Both the position numbers and the translations under genes were made by a program. From NCBI RefSeq assembly GCF_000021965.1, contig NC_011832.1:1-64000 (forward strand): a stretch of 64,000 bases of DNA, read 5' to 3'. The DNA is from Methanosphaerula palustris E1-9c. Lineage in GTDB: Archaea > Halobacteriota > Methanomicrobia > Methanomicrobiales > Methanospirillaceae. The notes beneath the pieces are model-generated. The model was given only the letters and a program-made list of their open reading frames with translations. It was not told the DNA's origin and did no database searches. Of the stretch, positions 7,020 through 26,268 are shown piece after piece. Numbering within the stretch: position 1 is the stretch's first letter; every line of letters starts with the position of its first letter.

Positions 7020-9212
7020 CTAGATCGTTCCTCTGCTGTCGACCATTCCTGATGGGGTGGCCGGCTTTTTAATGGATTTTTTACCGGGTTTCTGTTCCCG
7101 GTACTGTTTGAGCGTCACCGTCAGGTCCCTGGTGAACGCGAAGTAGCCGACCTGGGTGCTCTTGCAGAGTTTCATCGCCATATCCATCAGCCCGCGGGGG
7201 TCAGGGCGTGCCTCGCCGAGCCAGATGTGGAAGATGTTTCCCCCGTCGACGATCGGGAAGAAGACATGCTCGACCTCCATCCGCTTGGGTAGCGGAACAT
7301 CGGCTCCGGGAGCCACATGCGTGCCATTGGTGTAATAGATCGGGAGGTCATGCGTGGTTCCGATCCGGGCCAGGGCATCCGGCAGGTTTCCCTTGATCAC
7401 CTTCATCGCATGCGCCCGGTACCGCCGGTCGATCAGATCGGCGACTGCGAACCGCTGTCCGGTCGTCTCTGCAGGGGTCCGGGCCAGAGCGATCGTCATG
7501 TGGTGCCGCCTGGAGAGTTCTTTGGCATAGAGTTCCATCTCGGTCATCGCCCGGATGGCTAGGGCGAAGGCCTCACGCGACTGGTGCAGCTCGGTGCCGA
7601 CATGGTGCTGCACCATCTCGTTCACCCCGACGATCCCGATCGTGTAGACAAGTGACTCCAGGTCCACGGCCACAGCTCCTCGTTCCCCGGTGTTTGGATC
7701 CTTGGGCCGCTGCATCGCAAACGGCATCCTGCCGTTGGTCCGGATCAGGTTCATCCACCGGCGCTTGATCTTAAACGCCTCGACGGCCCGATCCATCAGA
7801 GCCTTCAGTTCGGCGAAGAGGCGGCTGTCATCCCCTTCTGCATTGTAGGCCGCACGCGGGCAGTTCACCGAGATCACCTGCCAGGAGCCCATCGAGAAGT
7901 GCATCCCATCCTTGAAGATCAGCTTGTCGTCGAAACCGGAGTCCTCCTCTGCGAGGGTGGAGAACTGGTAGGCGCAGCACTGGTAGCAGGAGATTCCCTT
8001 GCCGGCCCCGCGGTACGCCGGCATCTGGTTGTCGTAGTACGGGGTTCCGAACTTGGAGGCGAGCTCGAATGACTTCAGGTACAACTGCTGGTAGGTGGGG
8101 AGGTCGGGATGGGTCGCGTTGAACCCTTCGTCCTCCTGCATGAAGTCTGGCTCGACCGAGATCTCGGGTTTGGGGAATGAGAACGGTTTGCCCCAGGCGT
8201 CTCCCTCCATCATCACCTCCATCAGCGCGAGGAAGAGGAGCCTGACCTCCCGCTCGAACTCGCTGTACGTCCGGAGCGGGGCCTGCTCCCCGTCCCAGAC
8301 CTTCCCCTTGTACACGCAGGGCTTGTCCTTCCAGAGCGTCGGCACCCCGGGTGAGAGCTGCACCGATGAGAAGACCAGCTGCCCGCCCCGGGCGACCATC
8401 ATCTGGGTCATTTCGTAGACGAACATCTGCATCAATTGCTTGATCTCGTCGTACGGAACCCCTTCGACGAACGGTGCCAGGAAGGTCAGAAAGTTGTAGT
8501 AGCCCTGGCCCCCCGCGAAGTTGGTCTGGGCGGAACCGAGCGCCTTGACGGCGTGGAGGACCGCCACCTCCGCTCGCTTGGCAGGGCCGGCCACCGAGGC
8601 CTTCGTCCCGTTGCCGTCGGGCATCAGCCCGTAGTACAGGAAGTAGCGAAGGTCCCAGTCCTGGCAGAACGGGCGCGTGCCGAAGTACTCCAGGTCATGG
8701 ATGTGGATGTCCCCGGCCAGGTGATGATCGGCGATGGTCGGTGGCAGTTGGAGCAGGTACTGTTCCTTGCTGATCTTGTCAGCCTTCTTCTTGTGCGAGG
8801 TCTCTGCGTTCTCCTGCAGGTTCGCGTTGTCATGCGCCTCGAACCCCCTGCCGACATCGATCAGGTGGGCGTCGTACACCGGAGTTCCGACCCTGGTACA
8901 GACGTTCCGATACTGGACCAGCCCATGCTCGAGGAGGGTGATGTTCATGATCTCCCGGATCAGCGGGCCTGAGAGGGCAGTCAGGTGGAGGGCCAGGATC
9001 CGTTCCTCGACCTCTGCGGCGATCTCCCGGGCCTGCTCGACAGTGGCCCCGGTGTAGCCGTAGAAGGTCTCGACCAGTTTCGTCTCGTTCAGGATCTGCT
9101 GGACGATCCGTTCCCGGTCCCACTCGAGGATATGCCCGTCCGAGGTCCGGACTGGCGGCAGGGCAGGGACCCAGACCCCGTCGAGGGTGGTCTGCTGTGT
9201 CTGCTGCGTCAC
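7020..9212 (-). CDS. nrdD: Anaerobic (class III) ribonucleoside-triphosphate reductase, catalytic chain lacking the C-terminal zinc/glycyl-radical segment
   Basis: Reduces ribonucleotides to deoxyribonucleotides without oxygen. Residues 15-110 form an ATP-cone regulatory domain; the barrel follows, with the Cys-rich segment GKGISCYQCCAYQF near 405-420 and GGNIFHIWLGEA near 660. The protein reaches YFAFTRDLTV at 690-699, the point where other NrdD proteins continue with a CxxC-CxxC zinc finger and an RVxGYL glycyl-radical site. Here a 31-residue basic tail without any Cys follows instead. A QVGYF string at 687-691 only superficially resembles a radical site. The gene overlaps the upstream NrdH-like gene by 4 bases. 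No activase gene (nrdG) is present in the window. A stand-alone segment of the missing type is encoded at 25906-26268. Confidence 0.93.
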   Translation of the reverse strand: MTQQTQQTTLDGVWVPALPPVRTSDGHILEWDRERIVQQILNETKLVETFYGYTGATVEQAREIAAEVEERILALHLTALSGPLIREIMNITLLEHGLVQYRNVCTRVGTPVYDAHLIDVGRGFEAHDNANLQENAETSHKKKADKISKEQYLLQLPPTIADHHLAGDIHIHDLEYFGTRPFCQDWDLRYFLYYGLMPDGNGTKASVAGPAKRAEVAVLHAVKALGSAQTNFAGGQGYYNFLTFLAPFVEGVPYDEIKQLMQMFVYEMTQMMVARGGQLVFSSVQLSPGVPTLWKDKPCVYKGKVWDGEQAPLRTYSEFEREVRLLFLALMEVMMEGDAWGKPFSFPKPEISVEPDFMQEDEGFNATHPDLPTYQQLYLKSFELASKFGTPYYDNQMPAYRGAGKGISCYQCCAYQFSTLAEEDSGFDDKLIFKDGMHFSMGSWQVISVNCPRAAYNAEGDDSRLFAELKALMDRAVEAFKIKRRWMNLIRTNGRMPFAMQRPKDPNTGERGAVAVDLESLVYTIGIVGVNEMVQHHVGTELHQSREAFALAIRAMTEMELYAKELSRRHHMTIALARTPAETTGQRFAVADLIDRRYRAHAMKVIKGNLPDALARIGTTHDLPIYYTNGTHVAPGADVPLPKRMEVEHVFFPIVDGGNIFHIWLGEARPDPRGLMDMAMKLCKSTQVGYFAFTRDLTVTLKQYREQKPGKKSIKKPATPSGMVDSRGTI

Positions 9213-9484
9213 ATCTGGTCACCCTTGATGAAGGGCCCCACGTTCTTCTCGTTCACCGCACCCCCGGTGAAGAGGTCCGCGGAGGTCAGAAAAGCCATCC
9301 CTCGCTGCAGCACTGGAGCCTCGTTCACAAAGATCCCGTTCAACCGCAGTTCGGTCAGGGAGGCAGCAGTGGACATGTCCTCCTCGGTGTAGGCCACCCC
9401 ATGCCCTTTCAGGTACTCCTTCAGAATCTCGCAGTTCGGACAGAATTCAAGTGTATATACGGTCAATTTTGGCGCCGGCGACAT
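9209..9484 (-). CDS. Glutaredoxin/NrdH-like redoxin
   Basis: A 91-residue thioredoxin-fold protein with a CPNC redox motif at residues 15-18 (LEFCPNCEILKEYL) and a cis-Pro region in NEAPVLQ. The ATG at 9484 is preceded by GGAGGG with good spacing, so the longer reading from 9514 is rejected. It overlaps nrdD by ATGA and is most likely the electron donor of that reductase, as known for the NrdD2 type that uses an NrdH-type redoxin in place of formate. Confidence 0.88.
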   Translation of the reverse strand: MSPAPKLTVYTLEFCPNCEILKEYLKGHGVAYTEEDMSTAASLTELRLNGIFVNEAPVLQRGMAFLTSADLFTGGAVNEKNVGPFIKGDQM

Positions 9485-9631
9485 CAGACTCCCTCCATAA
9501 AGTAACAGTACCATAGGTCATCGCGGTGGTAAAAATTGTAGTGTTTGATCTGGACCTGCCACTATCTTCATCAACCTGTATGGAGACTCTGGTACCACGT
9601 GTCCGAGAGAGAGAGTCCGCGTGATCGACTG

Positions 9632-25051: not shown

Positions 25052-25909
25052 TCAGGTTTTGGATTGTCCGATCAGGTGTCGGTGCACCTGTTTGAGTTCG
25101 TTGAGCGAGGCCATCGGATTCCTCTGCAGGTAATCGGCGACCACCGGCTCGTGCACCAGGGTGCACTCACTGCAGTTCCAGACCGTCTTCCCACTTGAAG
25201 CGATCACCTGCTGGCCGAGTTCATCGTCATTACAGGGGTAGAACGGGCAGTAACAGTACCTGCAGGACTGCCCCTTCATATGACACGGGTAGTACGGACA
25301 ACCTTCAGGCTGCCAGGTCACCCAGTGGTTCCCACCAAACCGGCTGTAGATCGAGAAGGCCGGCCGGCTCAGGGCGGTCTGGTCCTTCGGTAGGGAGAGC
25401 GAGCGCCGAAGAAGCGCTGTCCCTGTCGCTTCGATGACCGCAGCCGTCACCTGCGCGTCCTGGCCGGTCCTGGCCGGAGATTCTGTTTCTTCCTCGGTGG
25501 CCGCCACCACCTCCACCCGGTACCCTGGCGTTCCAGCCTCTTCGAGCACCCTGTCGACTGCGGCTACGGCAGTCTCCAGGATCCCGGCCAGCAGACCCGG
25601 TCCGGCCCGATTTGAGACGATCACCACACTCACCGATGACGGCCCAGCATGGGCGAAGGCGGTCACCTGATCACAGCGTGCGACCGCGGCGGTGTTGATC
25701 ATCCCTGCCGAGAAGAGGGTGTACACTGGTCCAACCATCCCGGCTCTGGCTGCAGTCAGTTCTTCAACCCGGCTCTGGTCCTTCTCTTCTACGGATGTGA
25801 CCCTGATCATCACCAGGGGGACGGTCATCAGCAGGGCTGGATCATGCTGGACTGCAACCGTGAAATGACCGCGGAGAAAAAGGGTGGTATCGTCGAGATA
25901 ATATCTCAT
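25052..25909 (-). CDS. CbiZ-like adenosylcobinamide amidohydrolase fused to a Cys-rich small domain
   Basis: The first ~195 residues resemble CbiZ, which removes the nucleotide loop side chain of pseudocobamides for salvage: compare SAGMINTAAVARCD and the helix GLLAGILETAVAAVDRVLEEAG. The C-terminal part holds a Cys-rich module (CPYYPCHMKGQSCRYCYCPFYPC would be 23 residues; its Cys pairs lie between about 206 and 230) like the COG2158 domain of methanogens. ATG 25909 overlaps the stop of the upstream glycyl-radical-module gene (ATGA). The CbiZ assignment rests on a partial resemblance and is moderate; the Cys-rich domain is clearer. Confidence 0.65.
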   Translation of the reverse strand: MRYYLDDTTLFLRGHFTVAVQHDPALLMTVPLVMIRVTSVEEKDQSRVEELTAARAGMVGPVYTLFSAGMINTAAVARCDQVTAFAHAGPSSVSVVIVSNRAGPGLLAGILETAVAAVDRVLEEAGTPGYRVEVVAATEEETESPARTGQDAQVTAAVIEATGTALLRRSLSLPKDQTALSRPAFSIYSRFGGNHWVTWQPEGCPYYPCHMKGQSCRYCYCPFYPCNDDELGQQVIASSGKTVWNCSECTLVHEPVVADYLQRNPMASLNELKQVHRHLIGQSKT

Positions 25910-26268
25910 GCAATGGTGTAGTGGACCCGGTCCTTCAGTTCCTGCTGTTTTCCTGCATTCCAGCCGGAGACATCCTGAAGGTAGCCGGTGACCCGGCTGA
26001 TCTGCACCACATCGTGGGACCCGCAATCCGGACAGACCGCCGCCCCACAGAGTGGACAGTACTCGATCCCTGCGAGCACCTCATGTGAACAGTGGCAGTG
26101 GTCGAGCGGACACATGATCTCTGGGTGTGCCTCGCCACAGTTCGGGCATGGGCTCTCGTCCACGATCAGATGGCATGTGTGACATTTGTACCGCCGTTCC
26201 TCCAGGGGGGTATCGGTGAGTTTGCGGTATTTTGCGGCGAGCTTCCGCTGTTCCTCGCTCCATTCCAT
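25906..26268 (-). CDS. Stand-alone NrdD-type zinc-finger and glycyl-radical module
   Basis: A 120-residue Cys-rich protein. Cys pairs occur at 29/32, 41/44, 53/58/60, 71/74 and 79/82, and the C-terminus reads SRVTGYLQDVSGWNAGKQQE (91-110). This matches the end of anaerobic ribonucleotide reductases, where CPxCG is followed by RVxGYL, whose glycine carries the radical, and by NxGKxxE. Here G95 would be the radical glycine. The catalytic NrdD at 7020-9212 lacks precisely this part. By analogy with YfiD, the spare glycyl-radical subunit of pyruvate formate-lyase, it may complement NrdD in trans. A TTTTAAAA box at 26291-26298, about 27 bases before ATG 26268, indicates a leaderless mRNA. It is co-translated with the CbiZ-like gene. 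Confidence 0.8.
   Translation of the reverse strand: MEWSEEQRKLAAKYRKLTDTPLEERRYKCHTCHLIVDESPCPNCGEAHPEIMCPLDHCHCSHEVLAGIEYCPLCGAAVCPDCGSHDVVQISRVTGYLQDVSGWNAGKQQELKDRVHYTIA

Follow-up and report, generated by a model that had tools for sequence, protein, structure and literature searches.

Introduction

In the class III ribonucleotide reductases (NrdD) described in the open literature consulted, the glycyl radical is carried in the catalytic chain itself. Methanogens have a class III type of their own, NrdD3, which comes with an NrdH redoxin (PMC9176816). Autonomous glycyl-radical proteins have been described as cofactors of pyruvate formate-lyase (PFL), namely GrcA (YfiD) of Escherichia coli and Y06I of phage T4 (PMC8683613). 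A further precedent that bears on the present work is provided by the pre-mRNA introns of crenarchaeal cbf5, which are short, one of them being 33 bp, and by the 12-bp introns postulated for an archaeal virus (PMC2738675).

Here we analyse the first 64,000 nucleotides of contig NC_011832.1 of Methanosphaerula palustris E1-9c (assembly GCF_000021965.1), referred to below as the window. A preliminary description of this DNA, made from the sequence alone, had drawn attention to a small glycyl-radical/zinc-finger protein encoded next to a putative cobamide salvage gene. Our analysis suggests that the gene for a class III reductase underwent a single fission in the ancestor of the Methanomicrobiales, and that this 120-residue protein is very probably the glycyl-radical subunit of that enzyme. 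We found no earlier report of a split NrdD or of a separate NrdD radical subunit in the open-access literature, and a prior description outside it is possible.

A 120-residue protein with a conserved putative radical loop

The small protein (13 kDa; Table 1) contains 11 cysteines and matches the Pfam profile PF13597 (NRDD) above its curated cut-off, with residues 68–117 covering profile positions 508–562 of 562 (E = 1.3e-14). Nearly all of the order-wide matches listed span the whole 120-residue ORF, at 69–83% identity, and together with the profile match this means that the ORF is not a chance one. The NCBIfam model TIGR02487 is also matched, over positions 528–580 of 581, with a score far under its whole-enzyme cut-off, which agrees with the earlier expectation that routine annotation would simply call the protein a ribonucleotide reductase. 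The preliminary description had likewise recognised a stand-alone NrdD-type protein with a glycyl-radical domain and a zinc ribbon, and this is supported. It had placed the radical motif at the very end of the chain; the motif is there, but SRVTGYLQDVSGWNAGKQQE is not terminal, since ten further residues (LKDRVHYTIA) follow.

Conservation is concentrated on the radical loop. No substitution of Gly95 occurs in any of the 80 named loci (the best 80 of 152 relatives), and the radical glycine is kept in all 37 rows of an alignment that combines split and fused sequences (A2), so that the glycine of RVTGYL, on whose conservation the preliminary description had made its case depend, is indeed retained in orthologues. 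Of the 13 invariant columns in the split and fused rows of this alignment, 12 lie within residues 92–114, making the loop the most conserved part of the protein. Cys29, 32, 41, 44, 53, 60, 71 and 74 are also invariant in the same 80 loci (best 80 of 152 relatives). The first 77 residues, where a helix is predicted and zinc-ribbon-like repeats are present, have no counterpart in the aligned fused NrdDs, and the protein gives weak profile matches to double zinc ribbons. Modelled alone it reaches a middling pLDDT of 74.8, with about 60 at the radical end, and a search of the PDB with this model returned no match at E ≤ 0.001.

Table 1 Coordinates of the features discussed, in the window and in virus records
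Feature	Position	Strand	Basis or remark
Proposed small glycyl-radical subunit gene	25906..26268	-	120 aa + stop; profile match, conservation
N-terminal helix and Zn-ribbon module (predicted)	residues 1-77 of small protein	-	predicted helix, Cys conservation
NrdD-type glycyl-radical domain, residues 78-117	25918..26037	-	sole part matching fused NrdDs outside the order
Gly95 codon (RVTGY), putative radical site	25984..25986	-	invariance across loci
Downstream neighbour, C-terminal zf-like domain (PF04071), diverged CbiZ-family N-terminus	25052..25909	-	ATGA overlap with small gene
nrdD catalytic core, 730 aa	7020..9212	-	PF13597 positions 1-510 only
NrdH-like redoxin ORF, overlaps nrdD start	9209..9514	-	presumed reductant; homologue near most cores
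Virus stand-alone subunit with RVTGY	L239 3694-4074; L240 4989-5306; L255 319-651		
Interrupted virus subunit gene	L248 7068-7400 = L249 7660-7992		33-nt insertion

A catalytic core that stops short of the radical domain

A genome-wide search with the NRDD profile (one contig, 2,922,917 bases) returned two matches only, the small protein and a 730-residue protein. The latter is encoded by a partner nrdD in the same window that has no radical domain, a point which the preliminary description had overlooked. Within one genome the two cover complementary halves of PF13597, the large protein positions 1–510 of 562 (E = 6e-131) and the small one the stretch from 508 to the end, and we therefore take the 730-residue protein to be an NrdD that lacks the glycyl-radical domain, and the 120-residue protein to be the domain missing from it. 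As the partner has lost exactly this part, the small protein looks like a required half of the enzyme.

The position of the break is sharply defined by comparison with fused NrdDs from outside the order, mostly 67–72% identical to the core, which can be aligned up to GYFAFT(R/K)D(M/I)T(V/I/L). Beyond the break the fused enzymes show a zinc site and CPNCGSxNVEHLSRVTGYxQAVSGWN..K(K/R)QELKDRxRY; split cores cannot be aligned past it and end in a short variable tail. In M. palustris the core closes with FTRDLTV and some 30 further residues for which the model has very low confidence, lacks an RVxGY motif, and ends exactly where the zinc ribbon and radical domain of its fused relatives start. Across alignment A3 the R(V/I)xGY motif is found in none of 21 split cores and in all 19 fused rows. 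Over the stretch they share, the C-termini of the fused relatives and the small protein are 53–66% identical, with the similarity beginning at residue 78 of the latter (56–68% over some 40 residues for six genomes, 48% for one distant genome). The core gene is a full ORF whose product has many invariant columns in common with the fused enzymes.

A structural model of the core (mean pLDDT 85.1, pTM 0.85, residues 699–730 under pLDDT 50) gives the same picture. After re-alignment of 1000 PDB chains, the best matches are all class III reductases (Z 26.6–32.1), from Prevotella copri, phage T4, Streptococcus thermophilus and Thermotoga, and the alignments reach only to about model residue 694–712; class I and PFL-type chains score Z 18.3 or less. 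The N-terminal region of the core is presumably of the ATP-cone type, and the core further comprises the ten-stranded barrel and the catalytic cysteines. We also considered that the core might hide a radical domain of its own, and ruled this out, there being no second full PF13597 match and no motif in 21 of 21 cores. Elsewhere the genome encodes an NrdG2-type activase (TIGR02495, 150 bits against a cut-off of 131), and 31 of the 32 core loci examined have an NrdH-like redoxin homologue no more than 1.5 kb away. A class I/II-type reductase is encoded as well, and the split enzyme thus need not be the main reductase of M. palustris.

Could the small protein be a strict spare part of the GrcA/YfiD kind, serving only to rescue an NrdD cleaved by oxygen? 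Its size and architecture, an N-terminal extension followed by a radical domain, resemble those of the PFL spare part, and spare parts for other glycyl-radical enzymes are called possible in PMC8683613. Such a protein would, however, have no intact NrdD to rescue, as the core itself is without the domain, and among the matches listed an additional full-length NrdD occurs in only 1 of 199 genomes (G001). We consider a pure repair function highly unlikely; since the partner is permanently without the domain, the small protein looks like a subunit instead.

Co-occurrence of the two halves and origin of the split

To follow the two halves through the order, 199 Methanomicrobiales genomes were searched with NRDD, the small protein and PF02867 (class I/II large subunit), and 132 of them were classed as good (at least 90% complete, at most 5% contaminated). 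Barring two draft assemblies, core and small protein are either present together or both absent in these 132 genomes. PF13597 is absent from 12, all of them from one genus (g27), all with PF02867 and without a strong small-protein match. Among the remaining 120, the core is found in 119, the exception (G194, 810 contigs) having the small protein without a core, and the small protein in 119, the exception (G086, 70 contigs) having a core without a small match. PF02867 is absent from 24 of the 132 good genomes, some of which were identified by elimination, consistent with the tally of 108 positives. All 24 carry exactly two NRDD matches, core and small protein, and single-contig assemblies are among them (G109, G154 and G182). 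In these 24 genomes the split enzyme is the sole ribonucleotide reductase detected.

Of the best 80 of 152 relatives kept from a scan of named genomes, every title gives a genus or family of the Methanomicrobiales or else an unspecific 'Euryarchaeota' metagenome bin. In a phylum-wide search (392 genomes) the matches listed from outside the order are mostly full-length; cases in groups f7, f10, f15 and f22 were inspected, and some matches there are cut by long inserts. A split just outside the order was considered and rejected, six f7 genomes examined being fused. In a tree of 32 split, 27 close fused and 8 outgroup NrdDs, built by a quick method, the split cores fall on one side of a branch with an SH-aLRT of 100. 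Partial, insert-bearing or duplicate sequences (L030, L191, L192, L198 and L236) had been excluded beforehand, and the tree leaves out the distant fused rows L065–L085, L089, L091 and L187. The simplest reading is that the gene broke apart a single time, before the Methanomicrobiales diversified from their common ancestor. The two genes lie 17 kb apart in the M. palustris window and, among the matches listed, at least 223 kb apart in 26 other genomes with both on one contig, so operon structure gives no evidence of their partnership.

Several observations on individual lineages deserve mention. Genus g27 was checked for a retained small protein and this was rejected: the weak matches, in the four genomes examined, fall in one ORF of 1142–1147 residues, where they probably reflect the zinc region of DNA polymerase D, a reading with which weak PDB matches agree. 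G001 encodes a second, distant full-length NrdD of 565 residues beside the split system (contig C1, 590703–592373, L190), and G034 has two core copies about 16 kb apart (contig C1, 285076 and 300796) with one small-protein match. In genera g18, g19 and g20 and in others, many cores are open frames of roughly 1,160–1,740 residues in which the profile match is broken by long in-frame inserts, probably inteins.

Gene neighbourhood

The stop codon of the small gene overlaps the start of the downstream neighbour as ATGA (25906–25909), exactly as the preliminary description had it, and in 51 of 80 loci (best 80 of 152 relatives) a neighbouring ORF of at least 200 residues starts inside the stop of the small gene. 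The neighbour itself (285 residues) matches PF04071 'zf-like' (E = 6.6e-30) and gives no match to PF01955 (CbiZ) at E ≤ 10; no CbiZ match over the cut-off exists anywhere in the M. palustris E1-9c genome. Of the three orthologous neighbours that were scanned, two are recognised by CbiZ (E = 9e-39 and 1e-31) as well as by zf-like, and the third (L103) matches zf-like only. The earlier label 'CbiZ-like' is therefore right by descent, but not for the local sequence, in which a CbiZ domain can no longer be recognised. In the M. palustris and L103 neighbours the zf-like domain is strong and the CbiZ domain has diverged beyond recognition; since the former has been kept, the zinc domain may be the part of this protein that matters.

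The wider surroundings form a conserved block. In 80 loci (best 80 of 152 relatives), many of them cut by contig ends, the small gene is accompanied by pyrF (78), the deoxyhypusine synthase gene (77), the zf-like/CbiZ-family gene (73), a DUF1858 gene (70) and an OB-fold gene (70), and TiaS also belongs to this housekeeping block. With the same limitation to the best 80 of 152 relatives and many truncated loci, nrdD is near the small gene in none of the 80. In these loci the proximity to nrdD or cbiZ proposed for related genomes holds for the CbiZ/zf-like gene and fails for nrdD.

The preliminary description had read the coupling to a B12 salvage gene as a means of balancing B12-dependent against glycyl-radical supply of deoxynucleotides. 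A CbiZ-family gene does overlap the small gene in many species. However, the neighbour is retained in 8 of 8 loci matched to genomes without a detected class I/II reductase (L103, L108, L111, L117, L119, L122, L126 and L145), the block also contains unrelated housekeeping genes, and the CbiZ domain is unrecognisable in the M. palustris neighbour. As the neighbour persists where the B12 reductase is absent, and no CbiZ is recognisable in this genome, the balancing idea is unsupported and we give it very little probability. A second reading that starts from the neighbourhood would make the small protein a zinc-ribbon regulator, binding DNA or RNA or controlling the CbiZ/zf-like gene, with a vestigial NrdD tail. 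While the many cysteines and histidines, the weak double-zinc-ribbon matches and the translational coupling in 51 of those 80 loci would suit a regulator, a vestigial tail is at odds with a radical loop that holds 12 of 13 invariant columns of A2, and the small gene is missing where nrdD is missing, making a regulatory role extremely unlikely. The least probable explanation of all, that the truncated core is radical-free or dead and the small protein acts elsewhere, draws on the clear truncation and on the class I/II-type reductase of many genomes, M. palustris included, but conflicts with the 24 good genomes that have no other detected reductase and with a core that is a full ORF sharing many invariant columns with fused enzymes.

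Virus copies and a predicted intron

Scans of virus contigs found the stand-alone subunit in five records (L239, L240, L248, L249 and L255), which represent four distinct viruses because 14,702 bases of L249 are the same sequence as L248. PHROGs scans show terminase, portal, tape-measure and head genes in L240, terminase and portal genes in L248/L249, and genes for Sak4, a Cas4-type exonuclease and a helicase in L239. No NrdD core was found in L239, L240, L248 or L249, records that may be fragments. Identity of the virus protein to a cellular one is 78.5% for L239 (to L206), 64% for L240 and 46% for L255. Occurrence of the stand-alone form on plasmids or annotated phages was also considered and rejected, the annotated matches being NrdD genes or adjoining an NrdG gene (the check covered at least 20 of 40 records in one search and all 15 in another, several of them unannotated).

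A 33-base insert with an in-frame TGA splits the gene of L248/L249 exactly between RV and GY. The minimum-energy RNA fold of the insert is a full bulge-helix-bulge, with a 4-bp outer helix, a 3-nt bulge, a 4-bp central helix, a second 3-nt bulge and an 8-bp inner helix, the two bulges lying on opposite strands. Bulge-helix-bulge elements are cut after the second base of each bulge. Applied here, such cuts restore the reading frame and join GTA A to CG GGG TAT, which gives R-V-T-G-Y, as in the other aligned small-protein copies; the intronless relative L255 reads SRVTGYLAN. We therefore predict that the insert is a bulge-helix-bulge intron whose splicing would restore RVTGY.

The fold energy is unremarkable (z = −1.5, with 22 of 200 shuffles equally low). 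The geometry says more: one as good as that of the insert arises in 6 of 200,000 mononucleotide shuffles, and a looser one, with an inner helix of 4, in 335 of 200,000 dinucleotide shuffles. At the stringency of the insert, no other place on the + strand of L249 qualifies. Motifs with an inner helix of at least 7 occur once in L249, five times among the 175,936 strand-bases searched in six virus loci, and 24 times among the 818,246 searched in 40 of the 80 host loci. The motif is not rare genome-wide; its coincidence with the insertion is. Translational bypass was considered as another way to read through, and it was set aside on two grounds: the bulge-helix-bulge is complete, and whole-codon removal gives Ser, whereas the standard cuts give the conserved Thr. 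It is also possible that the virus gene is simply broken.

Discussion

The observation in the preliminary description holds, and the finding is stronger than was claimed there. A two-part class III reductase is, in our assessment, very likely to be what the split nrdD encodes. In such an enzyme the zinc-ribbon part would hold the small protein against the core and let the RVTGY loop reach into the barrel. A radical would be generated on Gly95 by the radical-SAM NrdG2-type activase and transferred to the finger-loop cysteine of the core, and the NrdH-like redoxin encoded with nrdD would re-reduce the active site. The extra zinc-ribbon module is most likely the docking element that replaces the lost covalent link; virus copies that are missing the first 25 or so residues still retain its main cysteine positions. 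Because the radical half is a separate protein, a subunit cleaved by oxygen could be replaced without remaking the core, which would amount to a permanent version of the GrcA/YfiD arrangement.

An extension of this idea is tentative, and we would put it at somewhat less than an even chance. The small protein may act as an exchangeable cartridge: copies of the 13-kDa protein charged by the activase would serve the domainless core, damaged ones would be swapped, and viruses would supply their own, without a core, to drive or revive deoxynucleotide synthesis in the host. In one virus, expression of the radical site would depend on removal of the 33-nt bulge-helix-bulge intron directly before the radical glycine.

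If the two-part reading is true, this would be a natural two-component glycyl-radical enzyme, with the radical domain as a separate gene throughout an order and, in two dozen good genomes, as part of the only reductase detected. For future work, the split system would permit tests of radical-domain docking, of activation before docking and of subunit turnover after oxygen damage. An entry annotated as 'ribonucleotide reductase' would turn out to be the half that an essential enzyme had been missing. The virus copies suggest a way in which viruses that infect such hosts may influence deoxynucleotide supply.

How does this arrangement compare with known systems? With cbf5 introns the virus insert has in common that it is a short insertion at a predicted bulge-helix-bulge, of the same 33 bp as one cbf5 intron; it differs in being predicted from sequence and in its location, since the gene that holds it is viral and encodes a radical subunit of the methanogen type, which it interrupts at the catalytic glycine. 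The split system shares the barrel core, the RVxGY motif, the zinc ribbon and an NrdG-type activase in the genome with class III NrdD in general, and an NrdH-like redoxin adjoining the core with the methanogen-type NrdD3. In all aligned class III NrdDs from outside the order, however, the radical domain is C-terminal in the same chain, whereas in the split system it sits on a protein of its own that has an additional ribbon module at the N-terminus. GrcA/YfiD and Y06I resemble the small protein in being small and stand-alone, in combining an N-terminal extension with a glycyl-radical domain, and in occurring in a virus too. In contrast to GrcA/YfiD, the small protein belongs to NrdD and not to PFL, and its extension is a zinc ribbon; and while GrcA/YfiD rescues an intact parent enzyme, the only PF13597 partner of the small protein in its genome is a truncated core.
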